Assembly (NCBI GenBank): GCA_963920765.1
Contig: OY987250.1
Coordinates: forward strand, 868,001-932,000
DNA length: 64,000 nt
Reading direction: 5' to 3'
From: Ulota crispa
Taxonomy: Eukaryota > Streptophyta > Bryopsida > Orthotrichales > Orthotrichaceae
The position numbers and the translations under genes are program-made. Shown here in pieces: positions 13,925 to 58,200 of the stretch. Each line of letters opens with the position of its first letter. Position 1 is the first letter of the stretch. Under the pieces are notes generated by a model. The model saw only the letters and a list, made by a program, of their open reading frames with translations. It was not told the origin of the DNA and ran no database searches.

Positions 13925-16900
13925 CTAAGCCAAAGCTGCAAGCTCGGCCTTAAGCCTAGATTTTCCGAACAAAGTCTCCTCAAACCGAATGATCTCGTTC
14001 TTGGATCCGTAAGCTACCTCTGTTCTGTCGTCGGTGTTAACCACCTGCCTGTCCAGCGCGGATTGCTTGCCATCGCTGCTGTAGCCTCCGGCATTCTCCA
14101 TCAACAAGGCCAAGGGCGCCACCTCAAACAACAACCTCAGCTTCGCCTTGGTGGACGGGGAGATCACGTTGGTAAAAATACCCCTCTCCTTCACGATGAT
14201 CTGCTCCACAACCAAGACACACGTCGTTAACCCCTCAAAGACCAAACATTTCATGGTTTCCGACTGACCAAATTGATTGTTCACGCTGTAAAACAACCAA
14301 AGACTACCAGCCTTTGTCAAGAACATTGCGTGTTTAGGTCAAGAAGTGAAAAAAATAAGACAAGAGACAATCCTCCTATAACATAATCACAACTGTCAAA
14401 TGCCATGAGAGCCAAGTTGAGCTTCTTGCCTTTTTGACAGTTAAAGTTTAGATATGATACCGCGTTAATTCCTATTGTTCTTACGGAATTCATGTAACGT
14501 GTTTGAAATCTAATGACAAGAATTGAATTCGCTCTTGGTTTCAGAAAGTGAAACGGACATGAAAAGAGCATGATAATGGAGATTTCTGTGATGTGGGAAA
14601 GGCTACCTGGTTGACATCAGGAACCATGCCTCCAGTGTACCGCAAGGTGTACTTCTCGCTGACGTAGTAGTTGATTAGCTTCTCGTACTCGGGGTTATCA
14701 AAGGTGGCCCTCAAGTTTCCAGGGGAGAAGAGCTTTCCTTCCTTGATTTCAGTGGTTTCTTTCACGTGCAACCACTTACCTGCATTGAACAAAATACTTG
14801 TTTTTAATAACACCTTCAAGACGGGTTACAAGAATTGATCTACAGCTACGACCAAGAATATAACGAGTACTAATATATAGGTGAAGCTCTCTCCCCAGAG
14901 CAACAATTACATAGCAATTAGGGCAAACAGTGCTAAATTGCAATGTACTAACTAAGGACCACTTTAAAATTGCAAAAAGCCCTACCAACAATACCGAGTT
15001 TGAACAAACGAAACTTGTACTGGAATAAAAAGCTTTGATAAGCACTCATAACGCGTTATTCGTTAAATTGGGAAAATAATTACATTTTGGGACTTTTGAA
15101 GGTTTCAGGTGGTCTGAAACCGAGCTCACAGCGTTTTTTTGGTACACGTGCCTCACCTGAGAGGAAGAATTTGCGAGGGAAAAAACCTTAGTGGCTCAGA
15201 CTAAATTTGATACCTTTGAATCTAGTTTAAGGTGACATTTTGGGTTCAAGGTGGAGTACAAAATGGTACCTCTGTTTTTCCCAATTTAACGAATAACGCG
15301 TTTCATTTGCATTTACGACTATCTTTTGACGCATTAAAGGTAACAACAAATCACCTCAAAGAGGTAGCTTGAATACTTTGAATATTTGAGCATGTAGCAT
15401 ATGTGCCATGTAAGCACTACCACTTCAAGTTCGTTCTCATAAATAGAACGAAGTTGACATTGAATAAAACGACATGAGTCGAAGTAAAAAATGAGTGTCA
15501 GCACCAATTAAGACGCAGTCTGTTTTTTTTGGTTTACTTCTTTCAATGTCAAGCTCAACTTCTGCATTAGGAAGTGAACCCCTAAAGGATGTTGATGTGT
15601 TGTAGACGCTCTCCTGTGTTGTATACGGATGGGGTATTTGGGTAGCACATGAATTCCATTAGAGCTGTAAATTTTAAGCCAAGTCAAAAAAATACTATCG
15701 GGCAAAGCCATTTCTTCAAGTACTAAAAAGTCCTCGTATGAATACAGCCAGCACTTTTGGTAGGCAACATCCTTGAGGGGTTAAGAAAGCGTACCGTCGT
15801 CCATGAGGAGGAACTCGTGAGTGCCGGGGACGCCAGTGAGGGCGATGACATACGTGGTGCGAGGACCATAGATACCCATGGCAGCTGCAGACTGGTCACG
15901 GCCAGTGACACCAGTGAGCTTTTCACCGGGCCAGACACCGAAGATGGTGCCCACGGTGAAGTTGGTATCCACAATGCTGGATCCGTCCAAGGGGTCGAAG
16001 GCCACGCAGAACCCTTCGCCTTCCATGTCCTGCAGGACGGGATTCTCCTCCGAGCACGCGTACTTGCACACATGCGAGTACTTGAGAGCCTCGAAGAGGA
16101 GCTTGTCAGCGAGGACGTCGACGGCGAGCTGCTCGTCGCCGAACGTGTTGACGCAGGACGTGGCAGTGCAGGACGCTGTGCGCACCTTGAAGGCGATGGT
16201 GCGCAGGGCCTCTCCCATGCACACCAACAGCCTCGCCAAGCTCTTGTCGTTCGTGGACTTGCTCAAAAACTCCTCCAAGGAATCACCGATCTCCGCCCGT
16301 GTCACGGCCTTCCTGACGCTGCTGGAGGACGCTCTTTGCGATGCCACGGCGTTGAAAGAGGAGCTGGGCACGTGGGTGCCATACAGAGCGCTTCCCTTTC
16401 CTCCCTGCACAACATTCTCAACACGATCTACCAAAATGAGCTCCCTGCTTTCTCCATCCACAAACCCATTCAAACCCAAAAAAAAACCAAAAATTCTAAT
16501 CCACCAGTTAAACATCCGCCAGTAACACATCCCTTGCCCTTCATTACCCTTCTGCCCCTTCGATCTCAACTACTCTATAAACAATAACTCATTCAAATCC
16601 CACACATTCAAACTTAGCTCAAGAAATTCAACATCCAAGAGGAAAACAACACGTAATAGCTTCATATCCACCTCAGAGCAAAAGAACTCTGTAATTATAC
16701 TTTTCGCAATGCTAGCATTCATTTTTCTTTTCAAAATGTCACTAAAATGCCACGAGGGTATGGGTATTCTTTCAAAATAGCAACGCCCAGTTTAGTTATG
16801 GCCCCCAATAAAAAAAATTAAACATTACATTCCCTTGAATCCAGTGAAAAGGAGGTTTTCCAAATCGGCACAGTAGCTTATCCCTAATTAACTGTAGGTA

Positions 16901-18767: not shown

Positions 18768-19489
18768 TTAAATCTTGCGTTTAGGTTGCCCCAAGCCACA
18801 CTATGTTCTTGACATTTTACATTATATATAAATAGGGAATTACTAAAGTTGCACCCAAAATTGTTAAAGCCAAAAGCCAAGGTGTGCTTTGAGCATGAAA
18901 TATGAGAATTTAATGCTGATTTTTTTTGCTTTGGATTAAAATATTTGGTTCACCTTTATCATTCTAAGGCTATATTCAAAAAAATTGGAGGAACTTAAAT
19001 TTGAAATTGAAAATATAGAACTTTTGAAGTACTTAAAGCAAAAACACATCAAGAAAATAGTAACTGTGTAATAAAAGTTCAGCAAAAATTGTGTTTGTTC
19101 TTCTTTCTTTCAAAGATGTGGTAATGCCGTGATTGAATGAATGATGGATCACTTAAATATAAATAAACAACATTAAACTCTCAAATTGCATGCTCACAAG
19201 GATGTGGCTTTAGCAACATTGGGTGTGGTTTTAGCAATTCTCTATAAATATTTACTGATTTTACAACAAATTTCATCAACATTTACCACAATGAATAATT
19301 TTGAAAGGGCTTGGCAACAACAACAAAAATGTTGAAAAGAATCTAGCGGCATCCAAGTTGTAAATCATGTGAAATCCTAGTGTTTGGAGAGTTACATGCG
19401 CCTTCAACTAGCAAAGCAATGATTCAGGAGGTAACTTTCCGGGGTAAGGCAACCTACTTGTTGAAGCTACCAAAATGCACAATTTTGTG
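18768..19489. mobile_element. MITE, family A copy 2, split by a nested insertion
   Basis: The left part (TCTTGCGTTTAGGTTGCC, GTTCTTGACATTTTAC) and the right part (CCAAGTTGTAAATCATGTGAA, GGTAAGGCAACCTA) match family A copies 1, 3 and 4. Between them sits a separate element at 18835-19242. The right end abuts copy 3 and appears to share its TA. Confidence 0.75.
18835..19242. mobile_element. hAT-type MITE nested in another MITE
   Basis: 408 bp with imperfect inverted termini of about 35 bp: left GGGAATTACTAAAGTTGCAC, right (reverse complement) GAGAATTGCTAAAACCACAC. Flanked by an exact 8-bp duplication, TATAAATA, at 18827-18834 and 19243-19250. An 8-bp target duplication is the mark of the hAT superfamily, whose transposase relics lie elsewhere in this window. 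Non-coding. Confidence 0.85.
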
Positions 19490-19491
19490 TA

Positions 19492-19785
19492 CACTAAACA
19501 TTGCATTTAGGTTGCCCCCACACTAATTTCTTGACATTTTACAATGCATAACTACTTATTGACTACATTGGTTTTCACAAAAAAATAAAATAAAATAAAT
19601 GGTTTGGTGACAAAAACAAAATTGCTAGGAAACAAACTAGTGAAGTCCAAGTTATAAACCATATGAAACTCTATATCTAGAGAGTTGCATGCATTTCCAA
19701 ATGGCCAAGCAATGAGTCATAAGGTAATTTACTAGAGTTGTAAGGCAACCTAATTGTTAAGGCAAACTAAGTGCAATATTTAGTG
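19492..19785. mobile_element. MITE, family A copy 3
   Basis: Starts CACTAAACATTGCATTTAGG and ends with the inverted form AAGTGCAATATTTAGTG. TA at 19490-19491 and 19786-19787. Nearly the same length (294 bp) as copies 1 and 4. Confidence 0.85.
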
Positions 19786-19787
19786 TA

Positions 19788-21430
19788 GATTGTAGAAATT
19801 TACTACCAAAAATTTGAATTTGAGAATTCAAGAATTTTGCAAAGAATAATGAATGGCATTAGGGAATTTTGTTGTAAATTTTTGTTGCCTCAAGGACAAA
19901 GGGCAGAGTCCAACACACAAAGGCAAAAAACCTGTCCACACCCACACACATGCATGGCCCCTTGCATATAATAATTGGATGATAAAAGCTCAAGGCCCTC
20001 AAAATGTTCTCTTGACACTCAACTTGAGCGTGTTAAGCAATGACCATTGAAATCACTATTCATTCTAAGTTTAGTGAGCTTTATTTTCTTCTCCACTTAT
20101 TGATTGGTCAAATGACTACTTGTGGAGCACACTTGAAGAGTGAGGGTGGGAGACAAGAATTTTGAGGACTCTCCAAAAGCAAATGAAAACACTTGGCGCT
20201 TTAGGAATTGCATGCAAGGGTGCGGATGCTCTTACACTGATATTTCCTAGCGGTCATTGTTTAGCTAGCGGAAAGTTCTGGAATTATGTGTAAGGCACTA
20301 GTCCCTTAAAAATTTGTGTACTAAAAGATAGTTTGCCTCCAAAATGTAAAGGAATTTTGTGGCCGTGTCTTTAAGCATATCTTTTATGGATTATAAACCT
20401 TATTATAGTCTAAAATCATAAAAGTAAATAAAATTGACAAACTCCAAAAATATGGGCAAATTTTTACTTACATTAGTCTATATGAATAAATTTAAGCTTT
20501 TTCAACCTTGGGCCCCAAGAAGTGTGATCAATATATTGTACCAATGTTTGTAAATGCTATCAATACAAAGCTAGCCAATTGAAATGGCTAAAACACTTTT
20601 TGAAGTTCGAAACTACTAGATTAAAAATGGGTTATATTTTATAAAATGTTTAAGCATGTTGTACAACTATATAAATATCATAAAATATCTAATGCATGCC
20701 TGTGAAAAAACGATTGCAAAGCCAGTGAAGTTACAACTTTCTACTGTACCAAGCCAGGGAGCTAGACGCTGGCTGGGCATAGATGGGTGCCATATGACGA
20801 CCACGTGGCCAATGGCAACTTGTGACCAAGTCCAAACCCCTTGATGTTTAGAACAAAAGGATATATTTGGATATGGGCATTCCCAAGCTTGTAACTGTCC
20901 CTAGGCATGTACCTATTTTCGTGCCCTATGTGCTTACCCATATTGGCTTATGTAAATCCAGTCAAATTCATTGTTTACAGATATTCAGAGGTTCTTGTTC
21001 TTTGAATTCACAATTAAAAGGAAAAATTTCTTGTTTTGGTGCTCAAAAAACCTAAAGGATATTCCAACTTCATTTTTCTATATTTTGTTGTAATCAAAAG
21101 TTCAAAGTGATGCAATTACATGCAACAAAGTGGCAAACTAGAAATGAAACTATCCATATATGGATAAAAAGTGGCTGTTTTGAAATAGATGTGATTCATT
21201 AGCTAATTTTTTTAATCATGCATTCCATCTTAGAATAACACAATGGTATAGGGAGTCAATTGAAAATAATAAGATTGGACAAAACAAGAATAGTTCCTTT
21301 CTTGGTAACTCTTCAATAGGAAGCAATTTCTTTTTGCTTTGACCACCAACAATGCGTTTCTATGAAAAAAGTTACTTAGTTTATACGCCCAACTTACCCA
21401 ACATAATCAAGTCGGTAAGTAAGGTGAAAT
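19788..21430. other. Gene-free interval
   Basis: AT-rich with no recognisable gene, repeat or element ends. The longest open frames (62-65 codons) lack protein-like composition. Confidence 0.45.
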
Positions 21431-21449
21431 CATGCTACAAATCCCAAAT

Positions 21450-21995
21450 TTGGACCGTTGCTGTGGACAGTCGCCTCCTACATTGACAGTTAGGACATTG
21501 ATGGGGCGTCGATGCAAGTTTGGCAATCCATCCATAGGTTTGGGGCGCCGTCTCCAACCTCATTTGGTCATCATGGAAAATCACACGCTGTCCCTAGTAG
21601 TTGACGGATTTGATGGACGGTACCGGCGATCGACTTTGATGGTTGAAATTGCATCTAGACGGCCTCAAAGGCTTTGACGGTCTCGACGGTCCCCATGCTC
21701 TTGAACGCCCTGAGCAGACGAACAGTCCGTCCATTTAGATGGTTGTCATTGCCCCCGGACAAACTCATTGAACGGCTTCAACGGACCCCATTGCTCCTTG
21801 ACGTATTGAATGGATGGGCGGTCCGTCCATTTCAAGGGCTGTGATTTGGCCTAGACAAACTCATTGGACGGCTATGACGGCCCGTGCCGTTACTCAACTA
21901 CCTCAACGGCCGCAGTGGCCCCAGCCGCTCCTTGACGTCCTCAGTAGACAGATGGTCTGTCCATTTGGACAGCTATCATTGCCCCTAGACAAAAA
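21450..21995. repeat. Degenerate GACGG-rich repeats (period about 95-120 bp)
   Basis: At least three degenerate copies of a unit built from GTCCGTCCATTT, ATTGCCCCxxGACAAACTCATT and GGCTxxxACGGCC occur between about 21690 and 21990, preceded by scattered GACGG/CCGTC motifs. The GC content is clearly above that of the flanks. It lies at the left edge of the hAT/kinase block and shares the GACGG core with the arrays at 22740-23115 and 29905-30140. Confidence 0.65.
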
Positions 21996-22739
21996 GTTTT
22001 CAACATTTGCATAGATACGTCTATTTTTTTACCCATAACCTCAAGGCAAATTGCTCAAGGGTGGATTAATAGGGATTCTATTCAAAACACCTAGCAAAAA
22101 CATTGGGAATGAAATTTGGACCACAAGTGCCAATGAGGGTGGCGGATGTATGGGATTATTTGTGGAATTAATTGACACAAACTTCCATGGGACCCTTATT
22201 GGAGTCCCAAATTGCAAATGTGGCCAAATGGGTGGACAATTATGTTTCTATAGCACACCTGCTTGGATGGTGCTTAAATTTGCACTAGGGATATGTGCAA
22301 GGATAAAGTCCCTTCTATTAATTTTTAAGAGGCATTGGAGTCATTATGAGTGGTAACCCCTTTGGGAGTCACTTTTTGGCAAACATGAATTAGGATGGAT
22401 GAAGGGGATTCAATCAAATTCATTAGCAAAAGCACTAGGATTGGGCTGAATTATGCAGCACTAGATCTAGGGAGGGTGAGGGTTACGTAGTCTTTTTTGG
22501 AGCTGTCATTGATCCAGTGTTAGTGGCTATACCATTTGGAGTCAATGTTGCTGCTAGCGCAATGTTTTTATGGAGTCAATCGGCGTTGCAAGGTGGAGGA
22601 ATTTTCCAAAGATACACTATCAACTGGCCGGTCCAATTGTCCGTGCAAGGTATCTGATGGATGGCCTTCTCATTTATTGGATTGCTTCCACAACCTTTTG
22701 CTACAAAGGCTAACATTCCCCTTGACAAATGTCCCAATA
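21996..22739. other. Interval with unassigned open frame
   Basis: A 101-codon frame (22051-22356, +) contains a Gly-rich and Cys-containing stretch but no recognisable domain. It lies between two GACGG-rich arrays and is probably internal transposon DNA. Confidence 0.35.
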
Positions 22740-23115
22740 ACCGCTGGACAGACTAATTGTCCCCACTAATATCGCTCGTGCAACCTGCGGATCCATCTCC
22801 CAATTCTCATCAATGTACTTGCCGTCACTTAAACGGATGAACCGTTGTCTAGACGGACTAGCCATCCTCTCCACGAACTGGCTGTCACTTAGTCGGATTG
22901 CCCATCCCCAAGTTGCAGTGGCCGTCACTTGGACGGAGTGGCCGTTCGCTTGACGATTGGTCGTTGCCTTGACGCACTACCCGTCACCTCTGCGTACTAC
23001 TTGTCCCCTTGACGAACCGGATGTTGCCTTTACGGATTGCCCGTCCTCTCAATGGATTGGCTGTTGTCTAGACGGATTGCCCGTCGCCTCGACGAACTGG
23101 GCGTCAATGGCAATC
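22740..23115. repeat. 21-bp tandem array of GACGGATTG.CCGTC units
   Basis: About 14-17 diverged units of 21 bp (for example GACGGACTAGCCATC, GACGGAGTGGCCGTT, GACGGATTGCCCGTC) with a regular period. Each unit is itself nearly palindromic (GACGG...CCGTC). This looks like a subterminal binding-site array of a transposon: hAT elements such as maize Ac carry repeated ACGG-core motifs bound by the transposase. Similar units recur at 29905-30140 on the far side of the hAT gene. Confidence 0.75.
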
Positions 23116-23283
23116 AAGTACATATGGTTCAGTGACGTTCTATTTACCGTGAGTCTCGGTTGCTCTGATGGTGCTTCCTTCTCTTGGGTTGGTTCCAGTC
23201 CTTGCTTGGGAGCGCGGGTGCTTGGATAGGGGCTCAAGTGAAGGAGAGGTGCAGGGGAGAAGTTTTGCACGTTGTGCAACCCT

Positions 23284-23292
23284 AAACCCTAA
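23284..23292 (+). promoter_or_regulatory. Telo-box motif upstream of kinase-like gene
   Basis: AAACCCTAA, the plant telo-box found in promoters and leaders of many growth-related genes, 75 bp upstream of the first ATG of the kinase-like frame and 170 bp after the 21-bp array. Functional meaning is unproven. Confidence 0.35.
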
Positions 23293-23366
23293 TTTCTCTC
23301 TTATAACGCCTGATTTTCATTACTTTGGAGGGGCGTGATTTCTCAAAAGCAAGGGTTTATGTGTGG

Positions 23367-24968
23367 ATGACAGGCATTGGAGATCTAGTAGTGCAAGAGT
23401 CTCCAAAATCTACAGATTGTGTATTTGAGGCCATGGCTCTAGGACCTGAAGGGGTCAATGCTGGGGGTGTTGGGAAATCTTTGAAGGGCAAAAAATGAAA
23501 GCAATGGAAGAGGCACAAAGCTACAAATTTGGAGAAGTGTCCAAGGAAGATTGCAACAAAGACGTTGCATGAAGAGGCATTGAATTTTTATGACCAATAT
23601 TTGATCTTGCAGTTGGACAAGACATACATTTCACATGGAACACAATGACTAGAGATCATTAAGAGGAAATTCCACCACATGTTCCATACAACAATGAATA
23701 GGGACAAGTGGTTGGAAGACTATACAAAAGAAGGGTTTGATTGTTGGCTTGACAAATAAGTGACGACATGCGTTTTCAACCTTGTCCAAGTTGCCAAGAC
23801 CATAAAAAACTTCAAACAGCTTGTATTCCCAACTTAGCAAGCGTTATTCTCACTACACAAGAAGGTGTATTGGTGGCATGATGCTGTGCGTGGATTCTCT
23901 TCACACAATATTTGTAATACTCCATGGCTTCAATAGAGTCAAAATTTGGCCATAGGTCAAGGGGTAGCTGGAGGAGTGGTGGTGGTTGCCTTATTTGGCC
24001 ACAACTTAAAAGAGGGGCATGCAAGTGTGTGTAAAATTAGGCTCCAAAATTCAAAGCATATTCCTGAGACAATGGAATTGGTGGCAAAGACATCGTTGCA
24101 CATTGGAGACTTAAAGAAGTCTAGGGAGAAGTTGTCCATTGAGGTATTGGTTTGCCCATGCAATCATTTAGGAGTCATTAAATTCTTTGTTGTAAACATC
24201 GCTACTATGGAGTGTTATTCTCAATGGTAAAATGGAGGTACTTTGGGTGCCATGTTTCATTTGGATCATTAAAACAAAGACCAAGAAGAAATTGGAGAGC
24301 TTGCTTATTACGCAACACCACAAGGGATGGAAGAAGCAAAACAAATTATGGCATATAGTTGCAACCGCATTGAACTTGCATGGGTGTCGATTTCCATCGT
24401 GGATGCTGTGCAGCAATCTTCAATACTCTACAACAACATCACTCCCAAGAACATCATGCTGCACTTTCCTAATGATGATGGGAGAATTGTATGGATTGCG
24501 CTATGTGATTGGGGAATGGGCAATCTCCTTAATGAATAAACACCTTCTTTGTACCATTTCCAAAGTCCTAGACTTTTGCAAGAGACAAGAGATAAACGTT
24601 GGTGGGTGGCACCAAAGTTGATGTACTTGACTGGGGAGGCAAGGCCTTTGGTATCTTCCACTTGCACGTTGAAGCCACCATGTGTTGGTATACATACTGA
24701 CAAATATGGCATAGGGGAAATTGCAACAAAGCTATGGAAAGAAGACCGCAAAAATGTAGAGATGATTCTTGATAATTTGGCATTTTCTATATTCTAGGCA
24801 TCATTGGATGAATTGATCAAGGAGGATCCACGACAACAATGGTCGGTGACACATGTTGTACAACATCTTAGTGGTGCTCCAACATTTTGGACACCACCTA
24901 TAAATTGCTATCGCGAGGCCCACAAAGAACAAGAACTAAAGGATGAACAAGCTAGGAAGGAAGACTAG
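23367..24968 (+). pseudogene. Protein-kinase-like gene with nine in-frame stops
   Basis: A single register of 534 codons runs from ATG 23367 to TAG 24966-24968 with no frameshift but nine internal stops (at 23496, 23646, 23757, 23835, 23934, 24228, 24270, 24537, 24795). The second half shows a protein-kinase C-lobe: a catalytic-loop equivalent YNNITPKNIML (the HRD aspartate is replaced by Asn), then after a short stretch CDWGMG in place of DFG, and WVAPKLMY in the APE position. The first ~330 residues are not recognised; a Lys-rich patch follows VNAGGVGKSL. The catalytic substitutions suggest either a pseudokinase family or decay. It lies inside the block framed by GACGG arrays and converges with the hAT transposase, so it could be cargo of that element. 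Confidence 0.6.
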
Positions 24969-26670
24969 ATACTTATGTATCACAATTATAGTGCAAACTT
25001 AGAGATGTACTTTGTAGCACTTGCATGTATTACAGGAAAAGAACACGTGTAGCAATGATTGTATTTTGTCTTCCATGTATGGTTCACTAATTTCCTTTTC
25101 ATATAAATACATATGAAATTTTTTGTTCCATTTTTGCCTTTTTGTAATGAATGTTTTTGTTGTATATTATTTTGGTTGTAAATTACAGCTCTAATTTTGT
25201 ATTAAAATTTACAATGATGAACGAAAATACTAGAAGTACAATATGTGCTTTGAACTTTACAAATTGAAGCTTTAACCCCTTTGAGGAGAACTTGGACTTC
25301 AACCTAAACCCTATGGCTAAACCTTTTGGTATGATCTTCCCATACTTTTATGAAAGGCGTGGAATAAAAAGATGTATGTGGGCATTTTGATTTTCCATCA
25401 TCTGGGAATTTGATGAAAAAGTTATGCATGAATTTATGAGAAGTAGGAGAGGACCGCTTGTCCAAGGCTTCGGAAGCCCTAGAACTTCTTTATAGTTAAA
25501 TTTTCCTTGAAACAAATTCTAAAATGTAATCTTTGTGATTTTGTGTATGTGGGAAGCTTTGAATTAGTCCATTTCAATGAATGAGACAAAAGTTATGAGG
25601 ACTATTGGGTGCAAGCAATTTCGGATTTTGTACTATAAAATTAAACATTGAGCTCTTTTATTTTACTCAATTTTCAATATTTCAGTGAAAATACTAAAAC
25701 GTAGGAAGTACATTGTTCATCACAGCACTATAAGTTTACAATTGTTGGGATTTGCTAGTTTGCTTTCAATAATAGATTTCTAAACAATCTGGTGATTCTA
25801 CTCACTATATAGGTCATTTTTTTTTTTTTTCCACCATGTGTGGTACACTTCCAAGCGTACTGAGATTTCTCACAAGCATACCTAACTTCATGTCCTACAT
25901 GGATAACATGAAGTGCAACTTCAAGTAGAGGAATTTTGTGGTTTTAAGAGTAGTCAGAGACTATTACCAAATGCTACAAAAATTATAAGACACCACAAAA
26001 AATCAATTGTTTTTCCTCTTCAAATGTACATATGTCACTCCTCTCCATCAATAATAAGCTGATATTTTTCCCACAAATACCATGACTACTTTTGGTTTGG
26101 GCAAGATTGTAGAATTGCTTTTCCTAAAAACAAATCAAAAAATCCCTTTTACAATACCTCCTAGAAGTGGCAGTTACTAGTGATTTGCATAGGAAAAAGG
26201 GCTTGGTCTTTTAGAGGTTACACTTCTAAACCCTTATATTGATTACAGTTCAGTAAACCCCAAACTTATAAGACATCCTAAAGCATTAGAAATTTGTGAC
26301 TACCATGTACTTTGCAAGGAACAAAATAAGTCAAAAGTGAACTTTTATAAAATATTTAATAACTATTTGTGTATTACAGTAGTATATAAAAAGATGGACA
26401 TATTGTTCAAAATGGATAGTAATTGTACTTATGCAAGTTCTTAATCAATTCATGGAAGTGAAAAGGAGTAAGAGGGGTATTTCATATTAATGCCAAAATT
26501 GGCATGGAAGGTAGTGAGCCTAGTAACTCATTGCATAGTAGAATATGAAGAGATTGTTCTCTTTCACATGGACGCACTCAACGTTTTCTATGCCTGAGAG
26601 TGCGTACATGATTAATGGCATTAACATCTTTTACTGCTATGTCATTCTTGCCAACTCTTGCTGCTGGACC
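24969..26670. other. Interval between convergent kinase-like and hAT genes
   Basis: AT-rich, no coding signal, includes a T-tract near 25817-25830. It would hold the 3' ends of both flanking genes. Confidence 0.45.
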
Positions 26671-29648
26671 TTATCGCGGCACTCTATAATCACTATCTCT
26701 TGGAACCTCACCGGATGCGCCTACACTACCACCAATGGATCCATCATTGTCGTTGGATGTAGCACTACTACTTTGACTAGAGGAATTAGAACGGGGATTA
26801 AGAGCATGACTGCCAGGATGATGGCAAACAATAGAGGACACTTTCCAAATAAGTCCTTGCCCAATTGCATCCATAACACCATCTATATTGGGCATCCCTA
26901 CAATATCAAATAGTTGGGTTGCCCCTTGCTCTTTTCTCATCCTTTGGCGTGTTTTTTTACTCAAGTATTCACTAGTAGTACCGTATTGATGTGGCCGTTT
27001 AGATTGGGTATTGGGACATAGAACTGGGTGTGACAAAGCCTAGTTTGCAGTCATATGCTCTGTCATACTCAAAGGTGGAAAGACACTAGTCAACCGTGTG
27101 CCTATTGATGAATTTAGTCCACAAGAATGAACTTTAGAAGTAGAAGGCCTTGATGGTGGATTATCCAGTAATGACACTTGACATTGCACTCTAATTGAGT
27201 CTTGATGTGGAGGGGGCATGTCAATATCTAGGGTAAGAGGGGGCCTTTTTGTACGAGTGGTTTGAACAAGCAATGATGGTGAAACAACCGCATCATGGTT
27301 GCGTCCTCTTTGAACATCAATGCCATCTGGATCTGTTACAATGGCCACACGTTCATCAATAGGGCTTGGACTTGGCGGAATTTGAGCCATCACGTTCTCT
27401 CCCATATGTACCCCGCTTGGACCAGCAGCCCATGTATTTGGCATCTATGGTGGAAACTCTTTGTGTCCCTTGTGGCCATTGCCATTATTATCCCCCTCAT
27501 TGAAGTCAAATATAGACTTATCAATTAGATTACGCCTTTCATGCCTCCCACTACTTCTAGGAAATGGGTCATTGTCTTCATCGGAGTCATCATTGTCAGG
27601 GTTAGAGAGAATTGACCCAAGGTCCAAACCATCAGATTCTTCTGTCATGGAGTCTTTTGATATCATGTTCTCGGTATACCACCATGTTGGATTTGCTACT
27701 TCCCTTTCTTTGAGAGTCTTGGAATTGGTGTAAATGTAAACCAATTGCTTTGGGCACTTTTATATCAATCTATTGCGAGACTTGTTGTGAACAAACAAGT
27801 ACATGTTCCAGTTATGTTCACAAAATGATGCGAAACACACTTGTGCAAGGATTCTTTTTGCAATCAACGCAAGTGTACAAGCAGGGGCCCCGAGAAGATC
27901 TCACCATTCATGGGGCTCCAAATTAAAAGCGTATACGTGAGGGGATTCACTAAAATCCCTCTTCCCTCTCGAAAAGCTTGGTACTCAAACAAAGCAGAAG
28001 CAAATGTTTGGTCTCCAACCAATAGTTTGCATAGTACTCTCAAGATGGCCACTTGTGTTTAGTCGTTGTCCATTAGCATGATTTCATCAAATAAGAAGGG
28101 ATTCAATTGAGCACCTGCATAATGTAGATCTATTCTCATCATATCCCATTGTGTGTAAAACTTGTATTCAACCCAACCTGCATACTTTGTTGGTAATAAA
28201 AATGGTGGATTCTTGAAAGATAAAATGCTCTTCTCCACGTTCTTCATCAAAAGCCATGCCTTCCCCAGACATGGGCGTTTGCCATCAAACTCTCAAAGAG
28301 CAACCAAGATAGGCTCCACCATGCGCACAAAGTTCAAACAAGACTTCCAAAATGAATCTGATCGCCCATGTCGTTGTACACTTTCTGCCTTTTTCCGCGT
28401 TTCATCTGTTGTCAATTTCCTCAAGTACTCATTCCATTGCGGATCATGGATAGTCAATTCCACATCTTCTCTTACTTCCACCAAACACTTGATCATGAGA
28501 AACGTGGTTGCAAAGCGCGTGTCATTTGGATTTTTTAGCATGCAATTGGGAGAATGTTGACAAAAGATTGAAAGTTGCATGTGATGCCTGCAAATATATT
28601 TTACAATGACCTTTGTTTTCACCACAGTTGTTGATATCCAATCTTGTTTTTCCCAATCTTCAAGTAAAAGGTCAAGCACATGCGCTGGACAACCTTGAAA
28701 GTAAATGGCTGGAAACCGACAAATTATTTGCGTTGTGGCTGCACACATGCTCCCTACATTGTTTGTGCAAACTTGTACTATGTTTTGTCCCCCCACCTCT
28801 TCAATGAAAGCCAGCATACAATTAGCCTCATAGGTAGCATCTTTGCTTTCACCTATTATATCTACGGATCCAAGAAAAACCTCTCCACTTGTACATGCCA
28901 ACATGATATTGATCAATGGTCGGTGTGACACATTGTCCCATCCATCGGAGCATATTGTCACGCCATACTTGTGGATTGGTCCCTCTATCTTTTCTGTTAC
29001 CAATGTGACCACTTCGTCCTTTGCAAAATCCATAAGCTTTGTATGAACTGCATGGTAAGCTAGAGGTTTGTACAATACCCTTGCATTTGATGTAGATCTT
29101 ACTGCATCTATAAAAGCAGGATGCTTTGCTACATTGAATGGTATATTAGCTTCATAAAAAAACTTAGCCCATTTCTTGTCTAGCATTTGATACTTTGAGG
29201 AGTTCATTCCTTCTTGTAAAGATAATTGCCTCAAAGGTGGACTGGTGGGTAAACTAGGGCCGGACGCCTCCAACGATTGTACTTGAGAGCATTATCCCTC
29301 ATAGTTTTCTCCACCTTCATTTGCTGAGACTAAAGCATTAGATTGTCACTCTCCATGTATAGCACTCGTTGGAGTTGTTGACGGCGATGTCACTTCCACA
29401 TTATTTTTATTTTCATCCACCAACACTGCAGGTGCATGTCCTCTACAATTGAAAAACATTGTTTTCACAGCTACATTGGCTTTGTTGCACAATCTCACTC
29501 CAGGGAGGTTATTAGTTCCCTTGTACCCCAAATGGAAAAACAGACAATCTTTTTGATAACTTAGGATAGTTCTACAATATTTGCATGCACTTTTTCCATC
29601 TGGTTGTTGCGTGTACCATGGGTTTCATTGAGTCTTGCCCCCGCCCAT
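26671..29648 (-). pseudogene. hAT transposase relic (BED finger, DUF659, hAT dimerisation)
   Basis: Read leftwards from ATG 29648. A BED-type zinc finger (CKYC ... HLGYKG ... VRLC) comes first. The DUF659 transposase core follows (VTICSDGWDNVSHRPLINIM; VGGQNIVQVCTNN; CPAHVLDLLLEDW), then the C-terminal hAT dimerisation segment (AKRILAQVC, NWNMYLFVHN, LVYIYTN). A ~240-residue Ser/Asn/Pro-rich tail ends at 26671. From 29648 to about 27863 everything is in one frame apart from in-frame stops (about 29627, 29346, 29301, 28293, 28059). One single-base frameshift lies at about 27862. Further stops are near 27760, 27445 and 27037. The full product would be about 990 residues. It is dead as it stands but structurally almost complete. 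The GACGG arrays on either side suggest the limits of the element. Confidence 0.85.
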
Positions 29649-29874
29649 TGTCACGGCTTGTTCTTCTTCCTAACCTTAAAAACAAAATAATAAGATAAGT
29701 ATTCTGTATGAAATGTGTAGAAACAACACTTGCTGCTCTCACAACAAGTGCTCCCCACACACACTCTTCTTGGGCTTCCCTCCAATGCAATGGTTGTACA
29801 CCAACCAAGTCATAGGAGCAGAGATCAACAAAGAAATGTGACCTTGAATAGTCAAGAGTCCTTCTTATGGTCCT

Positions 29875-30140
29875 GAAACCCTAAAGCTTTTGTGAACGGC
29901 CAAACCTGCACAACGGACTGGAAACGTCGAGGAGCCGTCTAGTGGACAAATCGTGCGTTTGATGGACGCTCTTGTTGATCGCTGGACGAACTTGCTGTCT
30001 GATTGACGGACTTGCTGTCCAGTTGACGGACTCATTGTCTAGTCAATGAATTAGACAACAAACTGATTGACATACATCATCCATGGCTTGGATGGTCCAT
30101 CAGCATTTTGGATGGATTCTGCCGCGTCTGGACATGTCAT
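29875..30140. repeat. GACGG-rich array right of the hAT gene
   Basis: Several tandem units of about 20-21 bp (GGACGAACTTGCTGTCTGATT, GACGGACTTGCTGTCCAGTT, GACGGACTCATTGTCTAGTC) followed by looser GGATGG/ATGACGGATGCG motifs. They match the unit of the array at 22740-23115, so the two arrays probably mark opposite subterminal regions of one transposon about 7-8 kb long. AAACCCTAAAG lies at the inner edge (about 29875). Confidence 0.65.
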
Positions 30141-30656
30141 GACGGATGCGTCATGACAATTGGATGTAAATAGCCAACGTCACATTAGTGTAGACAACCC
30201 TGAGTGCAGCAGGGATCCTAGTGATACTTGTATATGGTCTAGTGCTAGAAGACAATAGTTGAAACAAACTGGCTTGCTGACAAATTTTCCGATAGCAAAC
30301 CTTGTGATTCCAAAGACTTGCCCCATTCAAATACACCCTCTCAATTGGCCAAGCACGCAAGGAGTACTTTCAATCCTTGGAAACATGGGCGACGGACAAG
30401 CTCTTGAAATTTAAACAACCACTTTGGCATCACCCAAGGGACCGTCACATCCAACAATGGCATCAAAGTTGACAATGTAACATATTCCCTCAGCCACCAA
30501 ATCATCAACCCCATTGTATAAAAAGACAACTTTGGTAATCCAATTACAACAAGGTACACCCTCAAAGTCAGGGATGTCATTTACTTTGACTGGCACTATC
30601 TGCAAGATATCTTCAACAGAGATATACTCTACGAAATTTGCAACTAAAGACGCCAT
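30141..30656 (-). pseudogene. Unrecognised degenerate coding stretch
   Basis: An 81-codon frame from ATG 30656 (acidic, VNDIPDFEGVPCCNW..., no known domain) ends at 30411. Protein-like sequence appears to continue leftwards past stops (around 30400-30170: RIESTPC, FGITRFAIGKF, LDHIQVSLGSLL). I do not recognise the family. Its position just outside the right-hand array suggests another piece of element DNA. Confidence 0.3.
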
Positions 30657-55245: not shown

Positions 55246-58200
55246 TTATAGCGTGAACGTATCATTGCTAGGTTCTTCATTTGCATCAAGATCTGTGTCG
55301 TGACGCTGTGAATTTGTATGCTTATCGTTGCTAGAGCTCTGGTTCTTGTCCTCCCCTCTAGGCCTTGGTACTTGCTTTAGCTCTCCTTCCACCGCGGAGT
55401 TCAGGTTTTGCACCTCAGTGTCTACATTTTCTAATACCATAGTGTAGACTAAACATTTTTTTACCCTTGTTGTATCATTGATTCTATCAATGTTGGATCT
55501 TAGGTGTTTTGTAGCTCCTCCGCTTGATTGTCCAAGGTTTATGGTGGAATTACTACCACCCATGATAAACTGTTGGATAACCCGATTGGAACATCTACAA
55601 TTATGCTAGGTCATGTCATTTGTTTTCCTGATACGTTTCTTTGTTTTACGGCCATATGCTCCCAATGACAATTCTCCAAGGACAAATCTCTATGACTATT
55701 GAGTGGATTGAGGGGCAGAGTTGCGTACTTTGTCATCAATGGTCTGCATAGGACTATCATTCTTCTCTAGCGCTATTGAGATTGTTGGAAAAAACTTTTG
55801 TATGCTAGCAACGGCTATGATTACTCCCCCTAGATTGGAAGATGAGTTTTGCTACTTTTGCATCATGTTCCGCAAAGTTTCCAATGGCAAATGGTCATTG
55901 TCATCCGTTCTTGCTGTTGTTGAAGTGCTATGTACAACAATGACTAGAAAACTTGCATGCGCAATCACTTTTTCTTCTAGTATTGCCTCCATTTGCTTTC
56001 CAATTTCAACAATAATTGGCATGGCAATTGTTGTTTTGTTTAGGTGAGTCACTTATATAATCGTGGACAAAAAATTTGGGGTGGAAGATATGGCATGGTC
56101 CTTTGCTGGAGACACTAAAACATCTGCAACTTCTACGTTCAACTCTAGACTTCTTGCCCATAATGGTGGGGAATTTATTATCAGGGATGCATCCCAAGCA
56201 TAGACGTGGGGTTGGTTGTTTGTATGGTGCTCTTCCTCTTCTAATGAACTGTTCTCATGAAAGCCACCGACAAATGTGTTCACGTACTGTCGTTCATGAC
56301 GTACATGTCTCTCTAATATTGGGTCCAGTCAAGCCCATACACTTCCGTCTAGACATTCTTGCACGTCCCTACTATAATCCGCCTTACGTGCAAAGGTCCC
56401 CACTAAATCATCATCAAATCTTGAGGACATTGGCTCCTTGTTCTCTTCATCTGTATTTGTTTCCTCCAAATACTTTTTGTAAAATCAGCTAGATTTTTTC
56501 CACGTGTCTCCCTACCCAGATTACTGTTGGCGTAAATATATACCAAAGCCTTTACCTTGGATGCAGTCCAGCGGTTTTGCACTGCATTGTGCACAAACAA
56601 GCACATGCTCCAATTCCTTTTGCACAAGGATGCGGAACATGTCAAAGACAAAATCCTCCTAGCAATTTTTGGGAGAGCATTCCCGCCAACACAATTCCAC
56701 CACTGATGAGGCAATAATTTACAACAAGTGATATCTGGTGCCTCTTGCAATGGGTCGAACAGGCATGTCTTTTCTTAAAAACTGTCAACTCGCTCATAGC
56801 ATCGTCTTTTGACACTCTCAATAGCCTGCTCAATTTCCGGATTACTCGATTCAAGGCATGTTTGCCTTGGCCATTGTGATGAATGATAAGTACGTCAACA
56901 AAATATGGATTGAGTAGTGCTGCGGCAGAGTGGAGGTTGCTGTGCATCAATTTCTGTTAAACGTCAAATTGCTTCTCAAATTTTGTTGCTATTTTGTCAT
57001 CTAGGAAAAATGGCTCATTTTTGAGAGAGTAAATGTAAAGCTTCAATTGGTGCATAACTATCCAAGCTTGGGGCATTGCCGGAACTTTTCCATCAAACAC
57101 TCAAAGGTCTAATATAGCAGGTTTCATTATGTACAAAAAATTAGCACATTCTAGCCTAAACATATTTGAATGGATGTCCTCCCGAGCTCTTTGCGCATGC
57201 AATTGGACACTACAACTGTTACTCCAATAAAACAAATGACTCTCAAATTCATCATATGGGGGTTTGTAATTACAGATAACAATGTTTGCTTGCATTCTAC
57301 TAGACGGTCTATCCTGATAAAGTTCATTGCAAAATGTATTTGTGAAGGAAGTTGCAATGACAATTTTGGTGAATGCTTCCAAAAAAGAGCCAACGTATGA
57401 TGGTATTTCTTGATGAACCTCACAATAGCTTGGCACCTCGGTACCAGTTTTGAAACCCGCTTCTCCTTTCCCCAATCCTCCATAAACAAGTCCATACTGT
57501 GAGCTGCACATCCTTGTCTCTATATGTGAGGGTGTTTCTCTACCAATTTTGTGAGGGTCCTTATCATCACTACCGCATTGTCAGTACATAGTTGGACCAC
57601 ATTTTGAGGGCCAACTTCCTCTAAGTATTTCGCCATCATACTTGTTGTACACGCAATGTCCCTTTTTGCTCTGATGGTGTCAACAAATTCCAAAAATACA
57701 TCTCTGGCTAGACATATGAGCATTAGGTTTAATAACAAGTGTAAGTTGGTATCAAACCCTTCGTCCAAACAAACGGTTGCTCCATACAACTCAATACACT
57801 GCTTTGTCTGCTTTGACACCATTTTTGAAATTGCATCCTTCTTTGTATCTATCATTTTAGTGCGCATAGCATTATATGATGGCGGTTGATACATCAAATT
57901 GAATGATGTTGTTTCCTTTATTGCCTTCACAAAAGCTTGATGTTGCACGTCTTTGAAAGCAATGTTTGCCTTGTAGAAAAATAAGTCCCCATTATATCCA
58001 ACTACTACCTGACACCAACTTGTAATGCTTTATCCATGCTCATATGGCAAGAAGTAGAAGGAGTAAACCTCCTTCTCTCAGCTGATGTTGGAATAAAATC
58101 TACTAATCTAGATTAGAAGGGCGTACTTTCTCTGTATTTATGAAATTTGCGGATTCTTTGTGTGACAAAGCCACCACATGGTTTGCTGTGGGCTTGGCCG

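Follow-up and report, generated by a model that had tools for sequence, protein, structure and literature searches.

The 64,000-nucleotide stretch of Ulota crispa DNA analysed here (contig OY987250.1, positions 868,001 to 932,000; hereafter, the window) holds a dead and truncated copy of a larger hAT transposon, the broken half of a member of an unusually large plant family (Table 1). We consider it likely that this is a family of cut-and-paste elements with a core of about 14.2 kb, which carried a transposase gene, a kinase-like gene and a third gene, and in which the kinase-like protein served the element. An earlier note, made from the window alone, had proposed that a hAT element carries a kinase-like gene in its interior, at a standard position, and this claim is borne out by the rest of the genome: among the 18 copies in which a left and a right end could be paired, 17 hold the transposase, the kinase-like gene and the third gene, and only the shortest is without the kinase-like gene. 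The opposite outcome named in that note, other hAT copies that lack both the kinase-like gene and the arrays of GACGG repeats, did not occur.

A recurrent set of three genes

A search of the genome (275 Mb in 157 contigs) with the transposase DNA gave 42 matches, from which two small second pieces were left out. The relatives thus amount to at least 40 loci (40 of the 77 candidates were scored), of which 12, including the window, show 86–100% identity (family 1) and 28 show 75–81% (family 2). In 30 of the 40 loci, the DNA search placed a convergent kinase-like match within 8 kb of the transposase. The gap between the two genes is 1671–1680 bp in 10 of the 11 family-1 pairs and 1787–1845 bp in 11 of the 19 family-2 pairs, the remaining gaps ranging from 12 to 4968 bp.

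Searches at the protein level gave 87 kinase-like matches, which fall into 55 loci, 49 with at least 47% identity and six with 23–31%. A related transposase lies within 10 kb of 43 of the 49 close kinase-like loci, the third gene lies within 12 kb of 46, and both are present at 40; taken from the other side, 44 of the 55 related transposase loci have a kinase-like gene within 10 kb. These counts are based on one match per locus, listed by hand, with the second pieces of split loci left out (including the half of an outer copy at C7:66337), and exclude matches under 47% identity for the kinase-like protein or 60% for the hAT transposase. The clustering of loci had merged C7:66337 with C7:71929, and its figure of 34 of 40 became 35 of 40 by eye.

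Transposase relics are found inside all 18 end-paired copies, unlike in Pack-TYPE elements, which contain no transposase. The third gene, whose matches in the end-paired copies come from protein in all cases but one, which comes from DNA, sits on the transposase strand, and its pieces matched no family or structure in scans of Pfam, NCBIfam and PDB.

The convergent pair of genes described for the window in the earlier note stands at the coordinates given there, and profile matches back the assignment of the transposase. A 332-residue piece of the window copy matches DUF659 (E-value = 5.8e-31), as does L022 (E-value = 5.5e-38), and Dimer_Tnp_hAT was above the cut-off in three of the four pieces from other copies that cover the C-terminus. 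The transposase therefore has the DUF659/RNase-H-like core and the C-terminal dimerisation region of hAT elements. The window gene had been called nearly complete, which it is not: stops and frameshifts split it into open pieces. The zf-BED model reached only an E-value of 0.081 on the window transposase, below the cut-off, and a PDB search with the transposase core returned only weak, unrelated matches.

Ends, core and repeat arrays of the element

The copy at C1:30752775-30771459 (18,685 bp) has both termini and is flanked on both sides by an identical 8-bp target duplication, TTTGACAC. Its ends are hAT-like (TAGGATTGTC... and CAAGGTTGTC...), short terminal inverted repeats of the [T/C]AGNGNNG type; the two ends share seven of their first 10 bases, and each has a single deviation from this pattern. 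The left terminus, which ends GACAACCTTG, lies beyond a left-end GACGG/CCGTC array (piece L056). The common right end, CAGGGTTGTCTAAAC, has 14 exact matches in the genome, and the common left end is CARGGTTGTCCC; a left-end pattern of 28 letters (up to 3 mismatches) matched the genome 70 times, against once for the reversed control. The pairing of left and right ends gave 18 long pairs of 9.3–22.2 kb, once four overlapping rows on C7 (one copy nested in another) had been set aside, and five short pairs of 308–419 bp, which resemble miniature inverted-repeat transposable elements (MITEs) and were counted apart. These MITE-sized derivatives with facing hAT termini are located at C10:2036946-2037364, C10:2878262-2878585, C9:4146190-4146517, C5:16451873-16452226 and C6:3948145-3948452. 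The nested copy (C7:61108-90503) lies in the kinase-like gene of the outer one, and the two parts of the outer gene overlap by about 86 bp, not 8.

By this sequence comparison, the element has a core of about 14.2 kb and is longer where other elements have inserted. Four end pairs measure 13,973–14,274 bp, and three longer pairs are reduced to about 14.2 kb once the inserts mapped in them are taken off (L014, 18,311 minus 4,121; L009, 16,983 minus 2,743; L019, 16,422 minus about 2,161); the 18.7-kb C1 copy probably contains inserts as well. A 2.15-kb stretch situated left of the point where the window copy breaks off recurs in family 1 and, at 70–78% identity, beside many family-2 copies, and a probe from further left (L055, from the C1 family-2 copy) recurs 1.96–2.00 kb past this stretch in seven other copies. 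L047:1-849, a repeat some 850 bp long that itself contains tandem repeats, was seen in many places and is inserted in or near several element copies.

The GACGG/CCGTC motif was reported in the earlier note on both outer sides of the gene pair, and its enrichment is real: two 250-bp bins of the left array reach 7 and 5 occurrences, against a maximum of 3 per bin in 100 first-order Markov shuffles of the window. The right-hand cluster of the window copy is modest, with no 250-bp bin reaching 4; the terminal 500 bp holds 2–8 occurrences in each of the 20 copies that were fetched. The limits need correction, since the left array begins at about 21.5 kb rather than 22.74 kb and the right end of the element lies at 30202 rather than 30140. 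The further proposal that the two arrays are the ends of a single element of about 7.5 kb fails. The C1 copy extends left to an array and a terminus of its own, and the left array of the window is thus internal; most fetched copies of both families have a cluster at a comparable distance from the right end, and the end-paired copies are longer than the proposed element. Neither 22.74 kb nor 21362 was accepted as a left end, because there is no hAT terminus there and other copies go on leftward.

Flanks and multiplication of the copies

The right flanks differ in all nine of the family-2 copies fetched, which therefore represent separate insertions. Those of family 1 fall into two shared groups (of 4 and 7 copies) plus L019, and for 10 of the 12 family-1 transposase copies a chromosome end is no more than 1 Mb away (for example, C9:18994961, C3:33876308 and C6:52255). 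The family-1 copies are thus not independent insertions, and duplication near or between chromosome ends appears to have multiplied them in part. Segmental duplication as the whole story is rejected by the different flanks of family 2, the termini and target duplication of the C1 copy and the presence of three genes within one pair of ends. Contig C11 (6.3 Mb, 2.3% of the genome) contains 7 of the 28 family-2 transposase loci (binomial p = 2.6e-6); as a guess, it may be a small, repeat-rich, perhaps sex-linked chromosome.

The kinase-like frame and its constraint

The kinase-like gene can be aligned without introns over 533 codons in 17 copies, each with 3–10 stops. In order, the frame shows GxGxxG, Lys (family 1) or Arg (family 2), Glu, H-N-D/N-I-T-x-x-N, D-W-G, A-P-E, D-G-Y-x-x-G and DP-x-x-R, among which we take the kinase motifs GxGxxG, VAIK Lys, alpha-C Glu, HRD, DFG and APE to be represented. 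Among 24,736 Pfam models, the best match of the read-through frame was PF00069 (protein kinase) over the catalytic loop, with an E-value of 0.0017. The kinase identity is based on this order of motifs together with the sub-threshold Pfam match. PDB searches with the kinase-like pieces returned no kinase, and the NCBIfam scan gave no match; a single-sequence fold model had a mean predicted local distance difference test (pLDDT) score of 31.4 and was for this reason discarded as evidence.

The HRD Asp is D in three of the 17 copies, all of family 2, and the VAIK Lys is K in nine of the 17 and R in all eight family-2 rows. As D is found only in family 2 and K never is, no row has both. Catalytic competence is therefore doubtful, and the protein is possibly a pseudokinase; the Asp-to-Asn pattern may in part reflect CpG decay.

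No full-length open frame was found in the 20 fetched copies, the longest kinase-like piece being 262 residues; internal stops also occur in each of the 13 protein matches that align over at least 500 residues. Differences fixed between families 1 and 2 are distributed over codon positions 1/2/3 as 62/60/114 in the kinase-like frame (p = 3e-6) and as 21/13/42 in the transposase core (p = 1e-4), and no such excess at third positions is seen among the sites that vary within a family. For these tests, rows covering at least 60% of the region were used (17 of 21 for the kinase-like frame, L015, L017, L018 and L024 being dropped), L019 was left out, and a site required at least 4 rows and a 70% majority in each family. 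From the excess between families, with none within a family, we conclude that the frame was maintained during the divergence of the families and was free to decay thereafter. The kinase-like frame was thus under constraint while the element was mobile.

The six remote relatives of the kinase-like protein all contain stops. Four of them lie within 6 kb of a remote hAT transposase (37 loci, 33–45% identity): three as kinase followed by hAT on one strand, 2.65–3.3 kb apart, and one in divergent orientation at 5.8 kb. The fifth is 16.2 kb from a remote hAT, and for the sixth none was listed. When the kinases were placed at random on the same chromosomes, using an approximate length for C2, at most two of the six fell this close in 20,000 trials. 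One remote hAT relic is in the window itself (56406-57981, minus strand; locus 57259-57981), with 38% identity to the first transposase and a Dimer_Tnp_hAT match (E-value = 1.8e-5); no kinase-like match accompanies it in the window.

Proposed mode of action

The order of parts that recurs in the copies is transposase, convergent kinase-like gene, third gene (same strand as the transposase) and left array. By analogy with the Ac transposase, which binds AAACGG, the transposase would bind the GACGG repeats near the ends and would move the whole unit by cut and paste. The kinase-like protein would be made by the element and serve it, most likely by acting on or scaffolding either the transposase or a host factor restraining transposition. 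The copies would then have decayed, and the subfamily of the window would also have multiplied by duplication near chromosome ends. A wider claim seems to us tentative and somewhat less probable than its opposite: that a kinase-like gene has long moved with a hAT lineage as its functional companion, its product being an element-encoded kinase or pseudokinase that either regulates transposition or counteracts host silencing, and that this gene was kept across relatives only 23–31% identical and in different gene orders beside the transposase.

Several observations weigh against our main reading. No kinase-like gene lies within 10 kb of 11 of the 55 related transposase loci, and no transposase within 10 kb of six of the 49 kinase-like loci; near most of the 37 remote hAT loci, the window relic among them, no kinase is listed. 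The target duplication was read in one copy only, and the region probed with L055 was also found at loci outside the listed element copies. The C-terminal part of the transposase shows no significant codon bias (53/45/66, p = 0.19), and the third gene gave 9/15/19 and 22/14/15, against 15/9/7 for non-coding DNA (about 840 bp, two copies only). The PF00069 match, in a decayed frame, has 18.2 bits against a cut-off of 31.7, both catalytic residues are kept in none of the 17 copies, and the role of the protein is one that we infer.

Among the alternatives, the one that survives best, although we regard it as unlikely, is passive capture, in which an ancestral hAT took up a host kinase gene in a Pack-type or transduplicating manner and carried it along as a neutral passenger, of no use to the element at any time. 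The capture of genes by hAT elements is known from the available parts of two reports (PMC8903248; PMC6710886), and the lack of introns, as in a retrocopy, and of an intact catalytic pair would both agree with such an origin. However, the third-position excess between subfamilies and the association of remote kinases with remote hAT transposases suggest long retention under constraint.

It is less probable still that the frame encodes some other protein with chance kinase-like motifs: the Pfam score below cut-off, the lack of kinases in the PDB matches and of any NCBIfam match, and the low pLDDT of the model would fit this, whereas the motifs occur in kinase order and the best Pfam match falls on the catalytic loop. 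That the kinase-like and third genes came from another mobile element or a host segment hit by a hAT, the whole block then spreading by duplication, is very improbable and already largely refuted, for despite the shared flank groups and chromosome-end location of family 1, the three genes lie between a single pair of hAT ends in 17 of 18 copies, one copy has the 8-bp duplication, and the family-2 flanks all differ.

Relation to known elements

The usual view of plant hAT elements is of short transposons with essentially a single gene. The comparisons made here draw on the available parts of the papers cited. Maize Ac is 4.6 kb long and has subterminal AAACGG repeats bound by its transposase (PMC3260210); Ac/Ds and the Ulota element share [T/C]AGGG-type termini, an 8-bp target duplication and subterminal repeats containing ACGG, but the latter has a core about 14.2 kb long, at least two further genes and an extra internal array. 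The longest plant consensus hAT in one survey, Gulliver of Chlamydomonas reinhardtii, measures 7,144 bp, about half the core length found here, and no extra gene is named for it in the available part of that survey (PMC6027215). A hAT of about 9.5 kb in the Dothideomycetes carries a histone H3 gene described as captured and inactivated (PMC6710886). It resembles the present element in its 8-bp target duplication, its DUF659 transposase and an intronless host-type gene amplified in many copies; here, however, the passenger is kinase-like and constrained between subfamilies, and the element has a third gene. Pack-hAT and other Pack-TYPE elements, which are non-autonomous and contain captured fragments (PMC8903248), also have hAT ends around coding DNA other than transposase, but here the transposase and the other genes occur within one element in 17 of the 18 end-paired copies. 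No kinase-carrying hAT was found in the available parts of the open-licence papers that a literature search for kinases or extra genes in hAT elements covered.

If our reading is right, a hAT with a core of about 14 kb, at least three genes and a constrained kinase-like gene would represent a plant DNA transposon with several genes, and it could be tested whether a transposon uses a signalling protein of its own to regulate itself or its host. Annotators should also be warned that such kinase-like frames would be genes of the element and not of the host.

The window copy and its surroundings

Table 1. Features of the hAT remnant in the window
Feature	Position	Strand	Basis or remark
Truncated hAT element remnant (right part), 8,841 bp	21362..30202	- (transposase strand)	Homology limits against other copies
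Break point; the window lacks the left half of the element	21361..21362	.	Partner piece ends at C9:1219582
Internal array of 18 GACGG/CCGTC motifs, upstream of the kinase-like frame	21500..23150	.	Motif count against shuffles
Kinase-like gene, single frame, 533 codons plus stop, 9 internal stops	23367..24968	+	Alignment, motifs, Pfam
hAT transposase, broken; DUF659 in 28293-29291	26671..29648	-	Profile matches
Right subterminal GACGG/CCGTC cluster, 4 motifs	29890..30160	.	Motif count
Right terminus	30188..30202	-	Reads CAGGGTTGTCTACAC inward on the minus strand

The earlier note had suggested a search for termini and 8-bp duplications, and of these the right terminus is present in the window copy and the duplication in the C1 copy, but the window copy has no left terminus. 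At its right end, the homology of other copies with differing flanks stops at the terminal base; this base, or the one before it, was reached in 20 of the 20 fetched copies by local alignment of the last 150 bp, and a strict scan (up to 3 mismatches in 16) found the terminus at the right end in 16 of the 20. Leftward, the match of all family-1 copies that reach so far runs to 21362 and is followed by sequence without a counterpart in the window. No target duplication can be read for the window copy because its left terminus is cut off at this point.

The lost left half seemingly lies at a distance of 330 kb on this chromosome and strand, with the order of the two halves exchanged: C9:1219382-1219582 matches positions 1–201 of a 351-letter query in which the window half starts at position 200. 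The two pieces end at one and the same position within the element and their order is swapped, so a rearrangement probably cut the window copy apart.

Just left of the break (about 18770-19560) is a MITE-like repeat, with many copies at 72–84% identity and inverted internal matches. Further left lies an exon of a host gene (15781-16569, minus strand), whose best match was the sedoheptulose-1,7-bisphosphatase structure 5iz3 (E-value = 6.7e-99), which we take to be from the moss Physcomitrium.

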